Origin: Paramecium tetraurelia
Lineage: Eukaryota; Ciliophora; Oligohymenophorea; Peniculida; Parameciidae
NCBI RefSeq assembly: GCF_000165425.1
Contig: NW_001799034.1
Location: 1-64,000 of the forward strand
Direction: 5' to 3'
Length of the DNA stretch: 64,000 bases
The notes beneath the pieces were generated by a model that worked only from the letters and a program-made list of their open reading frames with translations, had not been told where the DNA came from and searched no databases. Numbering within the stretch: position 1 is the first letter of the stretch; each line of letters begins with the position of its first letter. This document shows, in pieces, positions 3 to 64,000 of this stretch. A program made the translations under genes and the position numbers.

Positions 3-3000
3 GAGAAAGTTCAAAACTTAGAATCTGATAAATAGGAAAAAGAATAGAATATCAATCAATTGAATGAAAAAGTTCAAAACTTTGAATCTGATAAATAAGA
101 ATTGGAATAGATCAAATCTGAATAAGAACAAACTATCAATTAATTTAAAGAGAAAGTACATATCTTAGAATCAGTTAAATCAGAATTGGAATAGTAGCTA
201 ACACATTTAAGTTAAACCTTAGAATTATATAACCAAAACTAAATTTCAACATTTTTACTTGCAAATCATTCTTTTTCATTACTAGAATAACTTTAACAAA
301 TTGTTGCAAATGCTAATGATTTAATGATTGAAAAAGGATTTGTGAGTCTTGATTTAAGAGAAGTCGAATCTATTTGCTCGTCATAATATTAATATTTATT
401 AAGTAATTATTTTATATTTTTCTAGAATTAATGCAAATACTTTCTCCTAATTTTATTCCTTAATAATAATTTATTAATAATGATTAAAAATTTCATTCAA
501 TTAAAAACGATATAGATTAATAGCATACTTTAAATACCATTAACTCTAATCAAAATATTAAATTAGATGCGAACTCACCTTAGAAAACATTCTGTCTTTA
601 ACATTAAATTAATGCAGAAATTGAAATGCCAAACATCCTATAGAAAATTGAATATATGCAAAACAATATCAATTTTCTTAATGAAGCGTTATTAAGCACT
701 AAATAGTAAAACACAAAATTAACAAAAGATTTTATTGATTTGATTTTAGCTCATGACAAAATAATACTAAGTAATATTATTTATTCTATTTTAGGTCTTC
801 AAACGGAATAATCTTAATAATAAAGTTTAGAAGTTAATAACATAATAACAGAACAATAAGAAATTTTCTAAAACATATTAATATCTGATTAAAAAAACAC
901 AATAGAACTAACCAACCCTGAAGAACTAAAAAGAGTAATTAAAAATCAGCAATTGCAGTTAGATTAAATGAGTCGCAGAGCGTAAATGAAGATTTAACAT
1001 CTATAATAATAAATAGATTTACTTTCTTTAGACCTAAAGTAGCAATAGAAGCTTCGCCCTGTTATTAATGTTAATGATACACTTTTGGAGAAAATAACAT
1101 CTTTGGAAAGTAGTTTTTTTTTATTTTATTAATTAGACTTTAATGATTAAATGAGATAAATCATAACATCTAATACAACCGAGATTTAAAATCTGAATGA
1201 TTAGATCCAACAAAAGAACAGATGTAACAAATTTTCATATTTAGATTTTAATAATGAATAAGAATTATATAAAAAGTCTTTAGAATAATTGCAAAAATCA
1301 TAATTATCATATATTAATCAGATTGAGGATATGACTTAAGAGATAATTAGTATTAAATTTATAATATAGTAGAAAAAAATACTGAAATAAGTTCTTTAAA
1401 AGAAGAGATTTAGACTTTATAATAAAATAACTAGAGATTGACAGAACAACATGAATTAAATAACTATTATGAGCAATAAATGAAAAGTATAATTTTTTAT
1501 ATTCTAGTGCTTTAAAATTAATTGGAAAAATCGAAATAAAATATTCAATCATATTCCTTTGCAAACTCTCCATAAGTTGAAAATAAATCTGTTTTTGGAG
1601 ATGGAGATAAATATAAAAAACTAATAAATAGCTTGAATGAAGAGATCAAACTAAGCAAACTTTAGGTTTCATAATTTTCAACATCTTGCTCAGCTTTGAA
1701 GTAGGCTTAAAAAGAGATTTCTAATAGATTGAGAAGAATTTTGAGCATACCATTTGATTAAAAGGCTGATCTTTAAGAAATGCTTAATTAGATTGAAGAA
1801 TAATTCGAATTGTTATCTTAATTGCAACCTAGGAAAAAAATTATTGGTTTTTCTGATACAACAAAGTACTTATTAGGTAAAAGTCCAAAAGAATTGAATG
1901 AAACAAAACATAAAACAAAATAGGTGGTTGTCGAAAATTAGGCTAAATCAAAAGATAAAGACATTTATCAAGAAGAAATGTAAATATTACCATCTATCAT
2001 ATCAGCTCGGTTGATCTGGATTAAATTTTAAATGAAGAAGATTCTGAAGAGGAAAGTTAATAAAATATCTAAATAACTTAATTTGAATATGAAAAATAAG
2101 TAAATTCCATCTTACAAGAATAAGATGAATTAGAAAAGAGTAGATAAATAAACTATTCATAAAGTTATGATGAAGTACATAATGATGAATAGAGAAAAAT
2201 TTAGAATATTTAAGAACTTAAAGTAGAAATTGCTGACTTAGAAATAGGCTAGGTAAATAATTAGAAATTAATGCTGCAACAACAACAAGAGCATTAAGAT
2301 TCAATTTATCATTTATAAGAATTAATTGAAAGTAAATTATAATCTAAAATAGATTTACAACAAATAGTTTAATAATAAAACCTAAAACTGATAAATCAAG
2401 AAGCTGAATTAGAAAATCATTTCAAAAACGAAAAATAGCAATAAGAAATCATTGCTTGTTTCTAAAATTAATTAGAGTAAGCCAGAAAAGAGTTGAAATA
2501 TCAAAACCCAGAATTTGGAGATAATCAAAAGGATTATGACCAATCAAAAGACTTAAAAAATACAATCCTACTATTAGAATAGGATAAATTTGAGCTTGCA
2601 GCTTAATTAAACGAAGAAATCACAAGAAATAAGGAATAAAAGGAATAATTTTTTGATTCAATCTCAATAAGGGATAATATAATTTAATGTAAATAGAATT
2701 TTATTATTTTAGATTTGTAAACATAATTAGCAATAAAATCTTCAGATTATGATCCTAAAACCTCTGAAAGAAGTTTAAATTTACAGAATTAATATGAATC
2801 CAGTTTGGATATTATAATCAAACATTGAAGACAAAAGTAAGGTTTTATTTAATGAAGTGTTAACTCACGAGGAAGCCAGATTTGTTAGGTCAATTTAAGA
2901 GCATGAAAGTGAAACAGATGAAAATCAAACCGTTCAATAATAGCAGATACCTCGTCTACCCCTTTAGACTTAGCAATCAAGAATCAGAAATCCACGACCA

Positions 3001-4177
3001 ACAAGAGGTTTGAGAAGCAGTGGATCATAAGATCATTATTAAAGTAAATGCTTCAGTTAACATAGATAATTAAATTAAAATTGATTAAATAGAAGAAGAG
3101 TACTAAGAACAAATTTAATTTTTAATTAATGAAAAAACCCAAATGAAGGAATGTTTATAGAAGGATATTGAAAATAAGGAAGAAGAAATAGATGAAATGA
3201 AACTGGAGTTAGATAACTTATAATAAAGGTTAATAGCTCTTGATATAGCTAATAACGATAAATAAAAGGAATTAGAATAATTAAATCAATATTTAAGAAA
3301 ATTAGACAATTAAAATTAAAGTACTATTATTGTAAAAATTTAAGGTCTAAAAAATTATAATACTAATATAGAAAATCAACTAAATACTTAACTACAAGCT
3401 TTTGAAAACTAAAGAAAGATAGTTGAGAATATTCATAGAACAAATGATGAAATTTAGAAAAAATATGACATATTACTACAGAAATATTTAAGTACATATA
3501 AATAATTAAATTAAGAATTGGAAGATGATCATAATAAACTACTTGAATAATAAGAAAACGATTTAGCTTAAATAAACTTTTATAATGAATCCCTTAAAAA
3601 TATGTAAGATTAAGTAGAAAAGTCAAAGGAAAGAATTTGTAAGACTGTACTATAATCACCTAGTGGAGATAGGGATTAAAATGAAGAAAATAAATTTAAA
3701 TAGCAGATAAATCGACTTAATGATGAATTAAGAATAAGTAAATTATAGGTTGCTTAATATTCTGCAACTAATCTGTAGTTAAAATAAAAACATTAAGAAT
3801 TCGTTGTTAGACTTTAACAACTTTTTAAATTATAATTCTAAGAAAATGATGATGTTGCATAAATAATCCATTAAATTGAGTAGAATGTTTCAATTTAGGA
3901 TCAAAATAGTCCAATTAAAGCTTAAAAAAAATTAGGAATGAATGATGCAACTCGATTTTTCTTAAATAGGTCGAGTAAATCGAGATCGTCTTAGGATTCT
4001 AATAGGCCTTCATAATAATAATAAAGCTAAATACCTTCAAGAGAAAGTCCATAGAAGGCAGATAATTTAATGTATTTTTATTTTATAGGTTTTAGCGAAC
4101 TTGATAAAATACTTGACGAATCAGATTTTGAGAGAGAACTATCTTAATAACAAAATTTCTTTTTTGACAATAATTGA
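3..4177 (+). CDS. Large coiled-coil protein, 5'-partial, one frame break
   Basis: With TAA/TAG read as Gln, one frame opens at base 3 and ends on TGA at 4175-4177, giving about 1320 residues; the start lies before the window. The product is rich in E, Q, K, N and L in heptad-like spacing and looks like a long coiled coil with a Ser-rich, Arg-containing tail. About nine short introns fit, for example at about 401-423, 771-794, 1980-2005 and a 24-nt one just before the last exon. Near 2820-2824 (an AAAC run) the frame shifts by one; the total exon length is one base over a multiple of three, so a single extra base explains it. Alternatively two genes abut there. No catalytic domain is seen. A cytoskeletal or basal-body role is possible but is inference. 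Confidence 0.7.
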
Positions 4178-53749: not shown

Positions 53750-55210
53750 TCAGATAGAACCTTCCTTTTGTTTGTCTTTTCCTTCATAAAACTTAATGTA
53801 TTAACTCACCATCTCATTCACTTAAGGTTTAGTGACTCTTTCACCATCACTTTTGATCATTTTTCTAAATAAACAGAAGCCAAGTAAAAAGAATAATACA
53901 ACAAATGCAGCTAGAATCAATAAATATGAAATAATAGATTAATCTAGTACTGGAGGTTAATAGCCTTCAATTTCTGAACTACATTCAGGTGGTGGTGTTA
54001 AAAAGCCTACGTTGAAATAATAGAATTACTGTTGCAAATCTCTCCGAAGATGCCTTATCCCGAGAACTACCCTTTGTAAGTCATAGAGTTGACTAGAACT
54101 GCTGGAAATACATTTATTCCAGAAACTTAGTATATGTGCAATTAATTTTCTAGTAAAAGATTGATAGCATTAGATTCATTTTTGGTTGGTTGGGAAGTAT
54201 GTTGGTCCACAAATGATCCATCAAAACAATTTTGAACTTCAGTTTTAGAGATCCCTTGTGCTTCCATTATTTATTGACTACAAACAGAGTAGGCTTAAGG
54301 CTTAGAACATTTGAAATTGAATTAGTCCTAAATAAATAGCTTGAATTGAATACCATATACGAAAACCATTTCTCTGGGTATTTTTAGAATATGCATGTTT
54401 ATCTTAAAATCTCATAGACTACATCTTTGCCAGTTCCAATGCCATAACCATCAGGATCAAACACACAATATCTATTTGAACAAATACAATCAGCATCCTT
54501 TTGATTCACAATTGGAGTTGTATCATTAAAACTCATCATAAAATATACAAGAGTGTAATTGATATCTTGATTTTTCAACTATTAGTAGTATGGTTAATAT
54601 TCATCAATAATTCTGAAAGATTCTCGATTTTGAATATTCAGTCCAAAAATGACTGATACTTTATCAGTTTAGACAACATCAAACTTTAAAAGCATCATGA
54701 TCTTTAAATCATTTGGGTCCTCTACTTTATAGGACTGAGCATTCTTAGTTAAAATATCGAAATGCTTTTTTTTGATGAAGATGGATGGGATTGATACCTA
54801 AGATAAAACTTGGAATATAAACTTAATATCCATAACCATCATCAGCCATAGTAAAATCATATTGCATTTGTTCGTCATTGTAATTCCCAATGATTGCCAT
54901 TTAATATCCAGCTTTCTCAGCATTCTTGACTTTAGTGACAAATGTACAGTTCCCTCTTTCAATCAAGATAAAATGAGCTCCATAAGTAGGTCGAAGATCA
55001 CTACATCCATTTTGTGGATAAGCCACATCTACTATTCCCATCAAACGATGTCCAAATGGTATAATTCTAGTTTTTGTAGACAACAACAATATACCCAAAA
55101 TTGGCTATACTATAATCAATGTACTCATTAATTAGGTTTTATGGCCTGATAACTTTGAGTTTAGACTAAATAACCGTAATAATGCAAATGAGTAGGAGAA
55201 TATTATACAT
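53750..55210 (-). CDS. Vacuolar sorting receptor-like protein (PA domain), one frame break
   Basis: ATG at 55210, TGA at 53750-53752; introns of 28, 26 and 23 nt. Signal peptide MYNILLLICIITVIQS, then a protease-associated (PA) domain (HFILIERGNCTFVTKVKNAEKAGY), a central Cys-rich VSR-type domain (CICSNRYC, FDPDGYGIGTGKDVVYEIL, IMEAQGISKTEVQNCFDGS, VFPAVLVNSMTYKGQF), a TM segment (IISYLLILAAFVVLFFLLGFCLF) and a cytosolic tail with KFYEGKD. Plant VSRs carry soluble cargo from Golgi to vacuole; EGF repeats are missing here. At 54787-54789 (CCC on the coding strand) one extra base breaks the frame; dropping one C gives 460 codons plus stop. Confidence 0.8.
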
Positions 55211-55361
55211 AATTTAAAAATAATTGTGTCATCGATTATTAGTTTTGGATTAGATTAATACAATCGACATAAAATGTGAAGACATTACTCACAAGGTATT
55301 GCCTTGCATTATTATTCTCTGATTGAGCCAATTGCATTATTTTCTAAAATTAAGAAAATTC

Positions 55362-55904
55362 ATGTATTATATTGATTTTTTTGTTAGTAGAAGTGACTTT
55401 TACAAACAACCTTTCCCCAATATCGGTTTAAAATCAATAGAAGAGTTCTTCTCAGAGAGAAACGAAATGTAAAAAGTAGGATTGACTTCAGATGACAATA
55501 TACACTAACAAATCATGACTAATGAATAGTATTTGTAGGATCCAAATAAAATTGAAGCTCAGAAATAAATCCAAATGGCAAATCAAGGGTTATTAGAAGA
55601 GTTAAATGATTCATTTGCAGATTCTTATGTAGATTCCTAAAACCTAAACAAAAAATCAATATTTCTCAAAGGTGCTAAAATAGTGAAATAGTTAGTTGGC
55701 AAGATACTTCATTTCAGAAACAACAACAGAATGTAAAGTAAAAAAAGGAAGGATATTAAATGCACCTGTAAAAAAAATTAATGTTGCAATCTTTATTGTG
55801 GGTGTTATTAGATATAAAAACATTGCACGAAATCATGTAAATGCAACAAAATCGAATGTCACAATATGCCTAATACAAGTTCCTAATATTAATAATTACG
55901 ATGA
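55362..55904 (+). CDS. Small CXC-domain (tesmin/TSO1-like) protein
   Basis: Single exon, ATG at 55362 to TGA at 55902-55904, 180 codons plus stop. The first 130 residues are unremarkable. The last 50 hold one CXC module: RKDIKCTCKKNQCCNLYCG, then CYQIQKHCTKSCKCNKIEC with nine Cys in the spacing of tesmin/TSO1/LIN54, which bind DNA (CHR-type elements) through two such modules. Only one module is present, directly at the C-terminus, so DNA binding may need dimerisation (inference). Divergent from the VSR-like gene (151 bp) and convergent with the giant gene (64 bp between stops). Confidence 0.8.
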
Positions 55905-55968
55905 TATTTTAATTAATAAATTTTAATCTCTATTCCAAAAATGTTGAAATTCGTTTATTTTATTATAA

Positions 55969-58900
55969 TCAAGTTGTACTAGTTCTTCTTTTGGCCTTAG
56001 ACTTTTATTTAACTGCATAGAACTCCAATTTCTGGCATAATGGATTATCCACGGGCAATAGAGCCTTGCAAATTTAATATGCCTTAATATTAGATGTAGA
56101 GCATATACCTTTTAAAAGTATTCCTCTCCCGAATAATCCATCTTTATCTTCTCCTTTTATAGAGTCTCGATGCCATCTTTGATTATGAGTTCGATCGTAT
56201 GAGTAGGGACCTTTGCTTTCTGATCAATTGTTAATTAGAAGGCTAATTTGTCACCTTCCACTTATAAGAATTGGATTAATTTCTTCTAATCCTTCCTTTG
56301 CAAATCTGGCAATCTCTTACCAGATAGAGTGTCCAATTCTAATTGCTTCAACAAATTCTACTCCAAAAACCTAATAAATCCGTGGGTCTTATAATTGTCA
56401 AAATGTTGAAGGTACGTTTTATCCTCTTTAAGAATTAAGGTGAGGATCTCAAACTTTTTGGATGGAGCTACTTAAAAATAAATTATCTACTTAATAATGA
56501 CAACCCCATGAGAACATCCACGTAGTTCTTAATCATATTCATTATATTCTATCTTAGATATCCTTATCTAAATGTTAGTTTGCAATAGTCTGGGTTGTAA
56601 ATGGATGTTTAACAAAACTCATAGGCACTTTTAGCCTCTTCCAAGTACCTCATTGTTGACACAATTTTACTTTGGATCTAATGATAAATGTTGATATCAT
56701 ACAAAATAGATATCTGAGTAAGTGGAATAGAGATAAGCTAATTAGGGACTGTACTCATAGGAGTATTCCTGACAAAAGCTCCTGTAAATGGAATAAGATT
56801 AGTTTGCTGCTATTAATGACCATCTGCAAACTAAATCAATGGACAATCCTTCATTGATGCCTTCTAGCACAGTTATCTTTGACTAAATGAATGATTTGGT
56901 TTCCAAGTATTTCTATTCCATAGCTGGGGAGCATTTATTCTTGACTTTGCTTTCCAAAATCTTGATGGTTTTTTGATTCAACTCAGACTTGAATGTACTG
57001 ATTTTAGCTTCTGTATCAGTCTAATGTTTATATCATAGATTCTTACAATTAGTTGTTCTTCTAGATCTTTGACTCTTAAAGTAGTCAAGAATTCAGCATA
57101 CATTCCAGCAATCAATCTTTGGATGTGAGCATTAAAGATATGATTCGATCCATATTATTACTATACGTATTTTTATATAGCAAACATAGGGTCGACGACT
57201 TGGGTTAATTTATCTGCGACATTAAGAGAAGACTCCAAATAGCATAAAAAGGCTTCTGTTTTGAGTCTATTGATTTCAAAGTAGGGTCTAAGTGCACTTT
57301 TCATAAGTGTTTAGTCATAAGAAAAGATGAGGGGTTTAATAGATTCTTGTTCAGGTCTTTTGATTTCAAAGAATTTGTCGAATTCCAAATTGCAAAAAAC
57401 CTAAAGATATATAAGGATTAGATAATACTCTTTCATTTTTGGTTGTTTTGATTTGAACATTTAATAACTATTGTTTATCTTCAATAGTTTGTATCATTAA
57501 TTGAGATTTTGAAATACCTTTCATATAATCTGCAATAATTAAATCCAAGTTCATCTGAATATTAGAATTAAGTGTAATGATCTCCTCAACTTGGGATTGC
57601 TAACCAAATTTATCCACACTAAAAGTAATTATAATTTGATTACAAAGATAAATTTGCCTAAGCCAATTTAAAGTCTCCTTTCATCATGATTGCTAGGGTA
57701 TGTAAACTTTCAAGATACTGAAACGCTGTTCTTAGGAAAATGATTTGTTTCAATGTTTTAAATTATCGAACATTCAAAAAGAGTTCTTTGATTGGTTCTA
57801 GAAGTGCCAATACATTATGTTCGTATTTCTCATAAATCTAAGCATTTTAATTTAATATTTTGAACATCTCCTCTACCTTCAAATCCTTTTTAGTTGATTT
57901 TTAGAATGTTTTCTCAGCCTGCCATCTTATAGCAACCTTACATAATTATGAGTAGATTAATTAAAACAGTTTCTATGAGACACTGGCTGCAGTGGTATCT
58001 GCATCTGAATATTATCCAGTGTGCATCTGGTAAATGACTAACTTAACTCCTAATTGACACAAAACCACTTGATTTTCTAAGGAGGCTGAATCAATTTATG
58101 CCAAGGCTGCCTTGATCTAGGTCATTTCATTTTACTCAAGGGATTAAGACAACAATAATTTGCTTACTTCTAAATAGTTATTTGATCTCTTGGTAAAACT
58201 CTAGGCCTTCTACACTTGTTCAAAGAGATCTTCCATTTGTCTTTCATCGGTTTTGTCTTCTTTGAGGATGTTCAAACGAATCTCTTCTTAATAAGCGAAG
58301 ATCTTGACGTTGAATATTTGCAAGGTTTGATAGAAGGATGAATGAGTAGAATTGAATAGATATGATTTGTTCTCAAACAGCATCAAGGTGAATTTCAATA
58401 ATTCGGATGCAAATTCCAATTGTTGGTTCTTCAGATTTAGATCTAAGATCTTTAAAATCACAAACTTGATATCGTAATAGTTCTCATACTTCTCCTTCTT
58501 TATCCAAGGCATTTACTTGAACTCAATCAATTAAGTAAGTGAAGTTCCTCCCAATTGATGTTAGACTATGGTAATAATATCGATGGTGGACAAGAGAATC
58601 ATGTGAATCAACGATTTGGTGTCTGTTTGCAGTACAAACTCTTCGGCTATCTGATCCATTTACGTATTGATTGTCTATAGAATGACCGGCAATTGCTGAT
58701 GATTTTAGGATATTAAGCAAAGTCTTGCTCTTACCAAATTGTGCTACACAACCATGAATCCATTTTTATTGCATAATGATTCTTCAGCTGCATGTTTGGC
58801 TTCTATAGATTTGAGAAAGGTCTCAAGATGTTCATCATCCAAAGATTCCAAATTCTACTTACTATTGATATAGAAATATCCTTAGATTAATTCCGTGATT

Positions 58901-61900
58901 ATGTTGTTCATGAGATTGTTCTTGAGCCAAGAATCGTTGTTGTTCTTTGAATTATACTCCTCATAAAAAAAGGGCACTAAGGGTTAATAATAAATTTGCA
59001 ACTACTTGATGAGTGACTATTCCATGATTACTTGACTAATCTCCTCAATGTTATTAGTCTCCTTTTTGGTTATGTAAGGGTATTGATGATTCTATGTGTG
59101 AATGAGTATATGCAAAATCTTAATGCATAGGATGCAATTCAACAGTTCTGCATTTTGATCCTTCAGTATTTACATGAATCCTTGGAAGATTCCCTCACTC
59201 ATCGTAATGGGATTGTAATAGAGCAATTAAGAACAATGATATATTAGGAGAGCCAATAGTTGTTTGTTGTAATTCTGAAAGATTTAGGATTTGAGACCGA
59301 AACTCTCAGAGATAAAGAATACTTCTTCCATTATTTCAGTGACTGTTTTGAAGATATTCAAAGTAGATTTCTCATCGTTGATTTCTGCGAAGTATTCTCC
59401 AGTCCACCCTAATTGAGGAATCTGATTCAATTGACTCAACAAACAATTTTACATAGTGAAATTCTTGGTGTAAGGCTTCAACCTCTTCAGTATGCCATGA
59501 TTGTCCTTACTCCTATTCAAATGCATAATCTACAGAAATTTGCCTTGCCTGTACAGCCACTGCAAAGTGTGATCCAAACTTCGTTGAAAATCTTCCTTGA
59601 TTTTGATTTGAGTGTTTTACAGTTATTATCTTACCAAGGATGACTTTCTCCTGTCGATTTCTCCCAAGTTCTCTTCATCCACTTTGATGTAACTGTGCAA
59701 GATATTAACTTCATTTAGTAGATCATGCACTTACTGAAAATCAGCATCTCGCCAACTATCAAAACTGATTTACACTTTCATATAATACATTTTTAATCTA
59801 CTTACCATCTTGATTAGGATATCCTCTTTAATCACAAATTATCCTTACTAATTCTTTTTGGAGTGTTTCACATCATGGACTATCTCACCTGAAGTATCAA
59901 TGATGAACTCTTCAGAAATGTCATGAGCCAATTAATATTGTTATTGCAGATGGTAAATCTACACCAAAGCTTACTGGAAGAAATGCCCATACTACTTTAA
60001 TTTATAAGGCAATTATTTGACATCCTTGAGTTTGTTTTTATCTTCCTTACAATTCTTTATTAATTGATCTTTGGACACTTACAATTCATACAATTACTCT
60101 CGATTTGCTATTGACAAATGAACATTCTAGATCTTCTGTCGTTCTTCCTCTGTCTTCGTTATGTCATGCAGCAAATGAACACATGTAATCTCCACTCCTT
60201 TGATGATCTCCTGAGATTTCAGTGACAATTGTTAAGCATAACGATATTGCTATTTCATGATACTCAGTTGCACTTTACTCAACAGATAAAGTACTAGATA
60301 TTTAAATTCGTGTATATTGCTACTCAATATTTCATACACTTGATTGTTGCAATAGTTGTCAATACAAGATAGAATGTCTCCTGTTTCTTTGGCATATGGC
60401 AATTGATAGAAGAATTGTGTCAACATGTTCTTCTCAAATGCTTCGATCTCCTCCTCCAATTAAACCAGTTGATGCAATTTCAAATGCTATTCGAATTTGT
60501 ATATATTCTATTTCAAGTACTCTTGAATGGATATCTTATCCTTCACATTCACATTGAGTTGAGTATTCTTCCCATCGAAAATACGAACCATCTAATCCTT
60601 GGTGATTTTTGGATTTGAGTTCTGTCTAATCTAATGGAATAAGGCTTCGTCAAAATTGATTCTCACTTCAGTCTCTTTGTAAGATTGCTAATTCTTGTGC
60701 TTCTAATAAATCTAACTAGGGAACTATCTCTGCATTTAATCAGGATTGATCAATTACAACACCAAATTCATAGTATTCGGATACTTCATTGTCAATTGCT
60801 GCTTACTATTCACAATCCATCTCTTAACAGCTCTCTCCACATCTCCTTCTTGATCCTTCAATAACTGCTCAATCTGAATGCCCATCTTACCAAGTGTTGC
60901 CATCTGTAAACCAACCATGCCTAATGAGTATGCATCACACTTCTATGGGGAAATGGCAATCTGGAATTTTGGATTCAAATAATTTGTGATTAATTCTGGA
61001 CTCATGTACCAAAGTTCATCATTTTATTCTATGGCTCTTGTGAAATATACTTTCTCCTCGTTATAATCATACCAATAGAACATCCCAAAATCCACCAGTC
61101 CATACGTATACCAAATATCATTCGGTTATTAATTTTTCAATAATATTATTGTTTACAAATTGATACTGCCATGATACATACCCTATTCACATTCAACAAA
61201 TGACAAAGTATCCAATACACTCACCAAAAATTCACAAATTTCCTAATCACTGTAATAGTTTGTTCTACTCTACAAGACTTCCTTGAATGCCTTACCATTG
61301 CAAATGCTGAATCCTTTAGGTGGTCCGTATGCTCTACTCAAATACCCTTTGATGACTGGATCCCTAATATTTGTTATTGGATCTTCAGGTGTTATCTTTA
61401 GATACTTAAGAGGAACAATAGGGACCTTCAATTGCAATTCCATGTATTGTATATCAGTTATTTTCTCATAGAATCTTGCCACTCTGCTTATAATGTCTTT
61501 ATGTAGAGTCCTGTGGTACAGAATTTCAGTCTAAAAAAACACCAAAACATCAGCCAATTTAGGCTTCTGAACTTAAGACACTAACCATCTATACATTTAC
61601 TGTTTGGCTGCAAAGACATTGTATTCTAAAGTGGCTGTATGCAAGGATTTCTTCGTATCTAAAGGAACGATGAAATATAAAATAGGCTACTCCTTAGCAA
61701 TCTATTGATCAACGAACAGATTCCAAATCTGATTTCTTAAGATTGAGACTGGTGGAGCCTAGATTCTGAAAGGAATGTAAGTGAAATTGACCAAATTGAA
61801 TTACTTCCTCAAATCCAATCCAATGTAGGCATCTAATTCGTATTCCACCTAGCTGACTCCTTTGGATGTCAAAGGGAATTGTAAGTTGGTCTTCGGAGGC

Positions 61901-64000
61901 AATTGTATTGAATCCACAAATTTCAAGTAGTCTTCATCACAATATCTAGATATTTGAGTTTGAGTCATGCTATTAATGTAAGAGTAGAATCGTTCGTCAA
62001 CGGGTTTAGTATCCAATTCCCTTCCTTATTGTTTGAAGACGGATTTGTAATTCATAAGCAACTTAACATAGTTCTTAGCAATTGCTATGGCTGGTTTTTT
62101 TCTTGTGCTCTTACGATATTAACTAAACCAAACTCCTTAGACTTTAAACACAACAGTCTTACGGCCATCAATCCATAAGTGCTTCTCCACATATTCTTCT
62201 ATCTTTTTCAATATTTCCATCTTTTCAATGAAATTCGAATGGATATCAAGATTCTGATTCAGGATTGTCAACTACCTTCTATACTTCTCATGTTAACTCT
62301 CCTTCAAACCATGTCTAAGTTTGTTTTGATTCTCCTAAAATACTATGGTTCTTCTCCAATCAAGATTTCTTATCAACACTAGATGTCTTCTTAAGAAGCA
62401 TTTTCTGAAAGTGAAACGATCATCTGTCCACAACTTTTAATGAGGATTGAGTTCATTCAGCATTTTCAGAAATTTGAGAGTCTTAAAGAAGAAAGCCTTT
62501 TGCTTTTGTTGTATTTCTGGGTCAGTAGAATCCTTCAATTTAAATTTCATAGCCCAATTAGAAGGTCTGCCAGCCAAATATTTCCTTAAAGTTTCAATGG
62601 ATTCCTTTTTCTTTTTTGATTTGGCATCTTCATCTTCCATAGTAGTGGATGCACTTAATTTAGATTTCGATTTCTTTTTTGATGACTCTGATTTCAATGC
62701 ACTCCTTGGTGATGATTTCATACTTTTAGGGGAATTATTATTTTATTATTATTTCTCCTTTTACTTCTACTTGTTCACAATATAATCTTCCACATCAGAA
62801 TCTGAACTAATTTCTTCGTATTAACATGTCTTCTATTCTGATAATAAACAACCATAAATCTTTTGAGTCGGATATCTTTTGATATCATCGTCTCCTTGGT
62901 TTTCTGATGATTACTTTTCACTTGAGCCCATAAACTTCTCAATAGTACTCTTGATCAAATATTAATGTCTTTGCATTAAATTCTATATTTCGTAAGGTAT
63001 CTCTCCAAATATTGAACCTTCAATATACCTTAAAAAGAAATTAGACAACAAGATGATTAGAAAGAAAGCGAGCAAACTTATTGTTGGATTGTAATCAACG
63101 ATTCTGTCTCTCGAATAAGAAATCAAACCACTATTCGAAACTAAGGATAGATATGCCAATCCTTCAAGCACATCATTCCACACTCCAATTGTAGATTCCC
63201 CTAGTGGCAATGGTCTTTACATATCATTCAACAATTTCAACTTGTCTGTCTGCAATTCCACCACGTTCCAAATGAAAGCAATGAAAAAACATAATGGAAA
63301 TGTCGTACCAAATAACACCAACATTGAATATTAGAGAGTGATTTCCATATATTCATCTACAGTACCATATCTTTCAGGACTGATAACGTAGGACTCTTTG
63401 TACAAGAATTCATTTTCAATAAAATTATTTATTTTTTCGAAGGGATTTGTCTCTCTTGTAATGGTTTCTTTCTTTTGAGTATCTTATTTCTCAGAAACAT
63501 TTTGTTCATTAGCCTATTTCGAAGATGCTCTATCAGGAGATAGACTTGGTGACTTTTGGGAATTCAAATCATCATGTCTCACATCCTCATCATCCTCTCT
63601 GATCTCATCAATCTGAGAAGTGAGTTTCTTGTTTTTTTAGACTTCCACATTTTCTTCTTTTTTCTCCCTCAATTATCGCAGAAATACTATCACTTTTGGT
63701 TTGATGATTTCCCAAATGTTCAATGAAAATTGTATTAAGAATATGGTCGAGAAATGATATTAAGCATGCTTCAAACAATCATCATTTATACAATGCAAAC
63801 CTACTTTCTAAAATATAAAAGCATATTACTTTATGTCCAAACATGATTTCAACCACTGGTCCACAGAGTGCAAAAAAAGATAGGAAATACTTCTTAAAAA
63901 CAAAATTGGTCTCATATTCTGTAATTGTTTTGTGATTCTCATAATCAGTCAATGACCCTGCTGTCTTGTCAAAAAAAGGATCCAAAATCAGAATCACTAT
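55969..64000 (-). CDS. Giant anoctamin (TMEM16)-pseudokinase-helical fusion, 5'-partial
   Basis: The frame is open from the window edge at 64000 to TGA at 55969-55971. Seven introns (22, 25, 28, 26, 25, 20 and 26 nt) leave exactly 2619 codons plus stop. Residues 1-330: anoctamin C-terminus, with DPFFDKTAGSLTDYENHKT, an acidic loop, YGTVDEYMEITLQYSMLVLF, RPLPLGESTIGVWNDVLEG and LISYSRDRIVDYNP, as in TMEM16 channels/scramblases. Residues 330-440: Ser/Lys-rich linker. About 440-920: unknown region. About 925-1040: kinase-like core with HGSIN in place of HRD, VDFG retained, WYMSPELI and CDAYSLGMV. The rest is helical, TPR-like. No TGA separates the parts. Confidence 0.75.

Follow-up and report, generated by a model that had tools for sequence, protein, structure and literature searches.

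The scrambling of lipids by membranes and the passage of chloride through them are governed in place and time by proteins of the TMEM16 (anoctamin) family, whose own placement and control are an open question. The N- and C-termini of these proteins both lie in the cytosol. In one study, yeast Ist2 is described as a TMEM16-like scramblase whose scrambling is Ca2+-independent and whose disordered tail of about 360 amino acids (aa) reaches the plasma membrane, acts as a tether, binds Osh6, recruits a lipid-transfer protein and supports lipid transfer (PMC12617493); in another, an inner-membrane scramblase of Toxoplasma is discussed as major facilitator superfamily-like (PMC13298984). Here we analyse a stretch of 64,000 nucleotides (nt) from Paramecium tetraurelia (contig NW_001799034.1, positions 1 to 64,000; hereafter the window), which carries on its minus strand part of a gene predicted to join a TMEM16 domain, in one reading frame, to a pseudokinase and a long tail. 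That this anoctamin-pseudokinase-tail fusion exists as one protein we regard, from the gene sequences compared below, as very nearly certain.

Ist2 would be the closest working analogy, the window protein being far larger. Both have a TMEM16-like membrane domain followed by a long C-terminal region, and the cytosolic tether or scaffold role considered here is that of Ist2; however, the region behind the anoctamin domain (the arm) is predicted to comprise about 2280 aa as against about 360 aa in Ist2, for which the excerpt of PMC12617493 mentions no kinase-like fold. No published TMEM16-pseudokinase fusion was found among the matches listed in open-licence PubMed Central, judged by titles and abstract starts, and database annotations or subscription papers may already hold these gene models; within that literature, what we found agrees with the statement of the first-pass annotation of this DNA that it knew of no described protein in which a TMEM16 domain is joined to a kinase-like module.

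The window corresponds to bases 1-64000 of the contig that we call C81, in a genome of 69 Mb and 231 contigs, and related copies (C21, C66, C193b and so on) are named after the contigs of the same genome that carry them. A codon-scored splice search over C81:55501-67500 predicted a single minus-strand gene running from an ATG at C81:66864, beyond the window, to a TGA at 55969, with a product of 3565 aa. Eight short introns were predicted, one upstream of the window (C81:66505-66483) and seven of 22-28 nt within it, where the exons total 7857 nt, or 3 x 2619. Introns of this length, with TAA and TAG read as glutamine and TGA as stop, fit Paramecium. Because the splice model gives seven introns in the window and an exon length divisible by three, the coordinates, intron count and frame reported in the first-pass annotation are borne out, with the refinement that the start codon lies outside the window. 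In the predicted product a region of about 770 aa precedes the anoctamin domain, which is followed by a charged linker, a basic, conserved segment of about 180 aa, the pseudokinase and a tail of about 1500 aa; the conserved segment has to be inserted into the order first described, in which the linker led directly to the kinase-like fold. The length of the arm was taken from the ends of the PF04547 match and the splice model.

The frame itself is open throughout. Under ciliate code 6, a single frame of 2120 aa extends on the minus strand from 63948 to 57589, starting in the anoctamin transmembrane (TM) segments, crossing the linker and entering the C-terminal region with no TGA, as had been claimed; the two alternative frames of the minus strand contain 81 and 92 TGA codons. 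Across the linker stretch at 62400-62950 the corresponding counts are 0 against 9 and 7, and the A+T content there is 68.2%, compared with 66.3% in coding sequence and 76.3 to 77.5% in the flanks, the one on the 3' side (55800-55968) sharing sequence with a CXC-domain frame.

Similar joints recur elsewhere in the genome. C21 carries another full-length copy, which aligns with the window gene over 1988 columns at 38% identity and is read in one frame through the joint without a frame change; its tail continues through introns that, judged by eye, lie at places matching those of the window gene. Searching the genome with the window arm returned 11 places. Two of these are the arm itself and C21, and the other nine each follow immediately after a different anoctamin. 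The arm of an 11-member group of these genes (clade B, see below) added C58 and C179, a search with one segment added C66 as the weakest match (E 1.8e-5), and a query made of the kinase-like remnant and tail of the 11-member group returned 11 places, which are its 11 genes. Of the 43 loci that match an anoctamin (40 without the three weakest), at least 14 thus carry the post-anoctamin segment, the search counts being lower bounds, and this segment was never found away from an anoctamin in four genome searches in which positions were compared with PF04547 matches. A stop-free frame leads from the anoctamin TM segments into the segment in 13 of the 14 copies (10 of 11, together with C66, C58 and C179); C66 consists of a single frame of 1891 aa without introns, which passes from the N-terminal region into the tail and is open at either end of the stretch read. 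Because related genes in this genome have a joint of the same kind, the fusion looks like a conserved design and not an artefact.

Selection on the linker was estimated as the ratio of nonsynonymous to synonymous substitution rates (dN/dS; Nei-Gojobori). This ratio was 0.030 in the close pair C166a/C219 (75 codons) and 0.145 in the close pair C94/C156 (142 codons), where the anoctamin parts gave 0.053 and 0.082 and the arm behind gave 0.08 to 0.19; segments were cut from stop-to-stop frames, so that the post-anoctamin ones take in some codons past an intron. Since linker dN/dS is low in these pairs, the joint seems to be translated and under constraint, at any rate between close relatives, and the test is weak for the window gene itself. 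The in-frame fusion proposed in the first-pass annotation is thus supported by a full-length second copy, by 12 further anoctamin genes with the segment, and by purifying selection on the linker in the two closest pairs.

The membrane domain is a complete PF04547 match distributed over two exonic pieces, C81:63830-64540 (profile positions 1-227) and C81:62965-63816 (225-460), which score 158.3 and 139.8 bits, well above the cut-off of 28; the TMEM16 assignment, for which a profile search had been suggested, therefore stands. The part spanning TM7 and TM8 matches the solved chains of ANO1, ANO6, ANO10, nhTMEM16 and afTMEM16. At the positions equivalent to ANO1 E702, E705, E734 and D738, which we take to be Ca2+ ligands, the window protein has E, E, E and D, so that all four are acidic. 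In the 11-member group the equivalent of E734 is Gln in every member (11/11) and that of D738 is kept in three and replaced in eight, and among seven other aligned anoctamins all four positions are acidic in C171 only. The window protein thus resembles the described TMEM16 proteins in its complete domain and its acidic TM7/TM8 positions and differs from them in the arm of about 2280 aa with a pseudokinase, the matched solved chains measuring 667 to 975 aa (an engineered fusion excluded).

Taken alone, a 403-aa piece of the window protein with the kinase-like region reached 29.5 bits against PF00069, just short of the cut-off (31.7); the corresponding piece of C21 matched this family with E = 8.6e-10. 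A profile of the C81/C21 pair, run against the PDB at E up to 10, matched seven distinct sequences, six of them serine/threonine-protein kinases and one an 'F22L4.1 protein' (best E 0.003). Comparing the same profile by hhalign with 10 kinases of this genome (12 were fetched and two dropped for an internal stop) gave a probability of 97.8% and E 1.2e-12 from the hinge to the last helix, against at most 3.3% in 20 column shuffles. In the catalytic centre the Asp of HRD is replaced by Ser (C81) or Gln (C21), the loop Lys by Asn and the Asn by Thr or Ser; DFG, SPE and the Asp of C-lobe helix F are kept in both. Because HRD is lost and the catalytic-loop Asn is gone, with DFG and SPE kept, the region is, by its motifs, a catalytically dead pseudokinase. 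Like other members of the protein kinase superfamily, it has a C-lobe marked by DFG, an APE-like motif and the helix F motif; it differs from them in lacking the HRD Asp and in being joined to a multi-pass membrane domain. A single-sequence AlphaFold2 model of the pseudokinase piece (60694-61902) had a mean predicted local distance difference test score of 32.9 and was discarded.

Among the 12 copies tested, the kinase fold is recognisable in two (two of 11 by Pfam, plus C66, which had no profile match; C58 and C179 are outside this count). The kinase region of C66, compared with kinases by single-sequence hhalign, gave 0.5%. In nine aligned members of the 11-member group, the stretch that matches the pseudokinase lacks the activation segment and most of the kinase C-lobe is gone; these nine match the C81/C21 pair (83%, E 9e-6; at most 0.3% in 20 shuffles) and gave 0.2% against kinases directly. 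A PDB search with an alignment of 11 copies of the kinase region had no match and the pair alone lists kinases, so we restrict the direct kinase claim to C81 and C21; the 11-member group is tied to kinases, on these alignments, through that pair only.

A tree of the anoctamin part, built from 21 rows of the 43 loci (C166b was omitted because its domain is split), separated the 14 extended genes from the other rows by a branch with support 92/90 and divided them into C81-C21-C66 (80/75) and the 11-member group (97/98). Support for the branch was 81/87 without C193b, 87/94 without C171 and 74/73 without C193b, C101 and C66; without C101, it appeared in 36% of bootstrap trees and the best tree had two changes. 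A single origin of the fusion is therefore favoured, not proven, by these trees. An origin of C81 and C21 by block duplication was rejected: of 16 predicted models on C81:25000-89000, three are pieces of the anoctamin gene, and 0 of the 13 others match the 54 kb around C21 at E 1e-8.

Two further anoctamins of the genome appear to carry other additions. The predicted protein at C186:227502-231884 has N-terminal ankyrin repeats (PF13857, E 3.7e-8) and, at its C-terminus, a sub-threshold EF-hand-like match (E 0.019), so that other anoctamin fusions may exist in this genome. Another predicted anoctamin, at C72:28803-33233, has a C-terminal part that is EF-hand-like by eye (LADVDNDELITKHEIEAIF).

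How might such a protein work? By analogy, we lean, if only slightly, towards a scaffold or tether mechanism with a non-catalytic pseudokinase. A single polypeptide of about 3565 aa would place a TMEM16 domain in the membrane and continue from its cytosolic C-terminus into the arm of about 2280 aa, which should itself be cytosolic because both ends of TMEM16 proteins are. The membrane part would scramble lipids or pass Cl- under Ca2+ control; the arm would serve as a scaffold or tether, binding partners and keeping the protein in place at a cortical site or a contact site, much as Ist2 uses its tail; and the pseudokinase would offer an interaction or allosteric surface and not act as an enzyme. 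We infer that scrambling or Cl- current could in this way be coupled to signalling. In the 11-member group the altered TM8 ligand and the shrunken pseudokinase region (in the nine aligned members) suggest Ca2+-independent, mainly structural or constitutive forms.

Several observations weigh against this picture. The case for one polypeptide is built on genomic sequence. The first-pass annotation had named, as evidence against a fusion, a TGA in the linker and two separate genes in homologous species; in the 13 other copies of the same genome no TGA lies in the linker, and C193b has one (C193:202075-202077) just upstream of it, at the anoctamin end, with no candidate intron. This TGA interrupts the conserved C-terminus of the anoctamin, and the sequence before and after it is homologous and in frame. 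C193b, whose branch in the tree is long, may be a decaying or split copy, or the TGA a sequencing error. In more distant pairs the linker has a higher dN/dS, 0.351 in the C188 pair (105 codons) and 0.471 in C81/C21 (101 codons), with dS of 1.4-1.5; outside the linker, dS in these pairs is often beyond estimate. The TM6 Ca2+ ligands, presumably N650 and E654 in ANO1, could not be placed, as a 50-aa TM6 query matched no anoctamin chain. The kinase profile search that had also been suggested gave a mixed outcome: a Pfam scan of the whole 2120-aa frame had no kinase family at E up to 1, the isolated piece fell just under the cut-off, and the profile-profile comparison was positive, with matches covering the C-lobe only and the N-lobe unrecognised. 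Of the kinase-like fold and about 1500 helical residues first described, the fold holds for the C-lobe by profile, and the low Pro+Gly content of the tail (3.9%) weakly suggests helices, being compatible with them and not proof. The tails of the two groups of extended genes had no detectable homology (hhalign probability 0.3). Finally, a polybasic C-terminal motif that binds PI(4,5)P2 (phosphatidylinositol 4,5-bisphosphate) would be expected of an Ist2-like tether, and the window protein ends in the basic KQKSKAKRRTSTT; because this end has no clear match in C21, whose end is less basic, a phosphoinositide-tether end is not conserved.

A rival account with a modest share of the probability holds that the pseudokinase is a decaying passenger, that the arm counts only as a structural tail or spacer, and that the membrane domain acts as any other scramblase or channel does. 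Such decay would agree with the small number of copies in which the kinase fold can be recognised, and with the 11-member group, which keeps a long arm aligning from the remnant into the tail after losing most of the C-lobe (nine aligned). Against it, conservation between C81 and C21 is higher in the block that contains HGS, DFG and SPE, with 59 of 99 columns identical, than in the tail, where 21 to 50 columns are identical per 100-column block (blocks 2078-3210). That the kinase-like domain is instead an active enzyme with a non-canonical catalytic centre, phosphorylating partners or the anoctamin itself, we consider improbable: some proteins first called pseudokinases were later found to be active, and DFG, SPE and the helix-F Asp are kept in C81 and C21, yet the substitutions in the catalytic loop, the missing N-lobe match and the loss of the activation segment from the nine clade-B copies that were aligned all count against catalysis. 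Least probable by our estimate, and very much so, are two adjacent genes transcribed or translated separately (for example from an internal promoter), with a stop missing by chance or a wrong model, since the C193b stop and a joint read from genomic DNA stand here against a frame free of TGA, a joint present in 13 other copies and stop-free in 12, the uninterrupted C21 alignment, purifying selection on the linker in the two closest pairs, a segment never seen apart from an anoctamin and a linker A+T near that of coding sequence.

If the scaffold or tether mechanism is right, this multigene set of natural fusions of TMEM16, a dead kinase and an arm, whose members differ in how far the kinase has been lost and the Ca2+ site altered, would form a series for testing scaffold control of scrambling, and the Ist2 idea of a scramblase with its own tether would extend to ciliates, in which the cortex consists of flattened alveolar sacs and contact sites. 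A wider proposal, which we consider rather doubtful, is that ciliates of this kind built a family of giant TMEM16 proteins, with 14 members or more, by capturing a kinase and turning it into a regulatory surface without catalysis that couples cytosolic signals or a cortical scaffold to scrambling or Cl- flux. The C81-C21-C66 branch, with a recognisable pseudokinase C-lobe in C81 and C21, would then have stayed Ca2+-gated, and the 11-member branch, having lost a Ca2+ ligand (E734 to Q) and most of the kinase (nine of 11 examined), would consist of Ca2+-independent tethers.

Table 1. Predicted features of the fusion gene, in window coordinates.
Feature	Position	Strand	Remark	Basis
Gene part inside the window	55969..64000	-	2619 codons including stop	spliced model and homology with C21 copy
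Anoctamin (TMEM16) domain, C-terminal part	62965..64000	-	N-terminal part runs on to C81:64540	PF04547
TM7 codons EYME	63343..63354	-	equivalents of ANO1 E702, E705	alignment with Anoctamin-1 chains and family alignment
TM8 codons ELQTD	63244..63258	-	equivalents of ANO1 E734, D738	alignment with Anoctamin-1 chains and family alignment
Linker	62584..62892	-	Ser/Lys/acidic; SSDSDVEDY motif common to C21 copy	alignment with C21
Conserved post-anoctamin segment	62068..62601	-	behind 14 anoctamins	alignment of 11 copies and genome searches
Putative pseudokinase, hinge to last C-lobe helix	60715..61308	-		hhalign with 10 kinases of the genome; PF00069
HGS replacing catalytic HRD	61165..61173	-	HGQ in C21	C81/C21 alignment, kinase profile
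DFG motif	61084..61092	-	kept	C81/C21 alignment, kinase profile
SPE replacing APE	60994..61002	-		C81/C21 alignment, kinase profile
Tail, about 1500 aa	55969..60639	-	ends in basic KQKSKAKRRTSTT	Pfam scan (to 57589), splice model
Predicted intron, 22 nt	63808..63829	-		splice model
Predicted intron, 25 nt	57619..57643	-		splice model
Predicted intron, 28 nt	57401..57428	-		splice model
Predicted intron, 26 nt	57021..57046	-		splice model
Predicted intron, 25 nt	56678..56702	-	matching position in C21 copy (C21 intron by eye from DNA)	splice model
Predicted intron, 23 nt	56468..56490	-	matching position in C21 copy (by eye)	splice model
Predicted intron, 26 nt	56083..56108	-	ends AAG; matching position in C21 copy (by eye)	splice model

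In the scanned part of the tail (to 57589) no Pfam family scored above its cut-off, and a scan of viral contigs with the arm gave four pattern matches and no relative. Other frames flank the gene. Just downstream of it, window positions 55323-55901 (plus strand) encode a Tesmin/TSO1-like CXC domain (PF03638, E 2.3e-6), and positions 54712-55359 (minus strand) a PA domain (PF02225, E 1.9e-10), which adjoining frames continue with cysteine-rich sequence that is sorting-receptor-like by eye. The divergent neighbour upstream, at C81:67488-68042 (plus strand), is a small GTPase of the Ras family (PF00071, E 4e-43), 'Rab-like' by eye.

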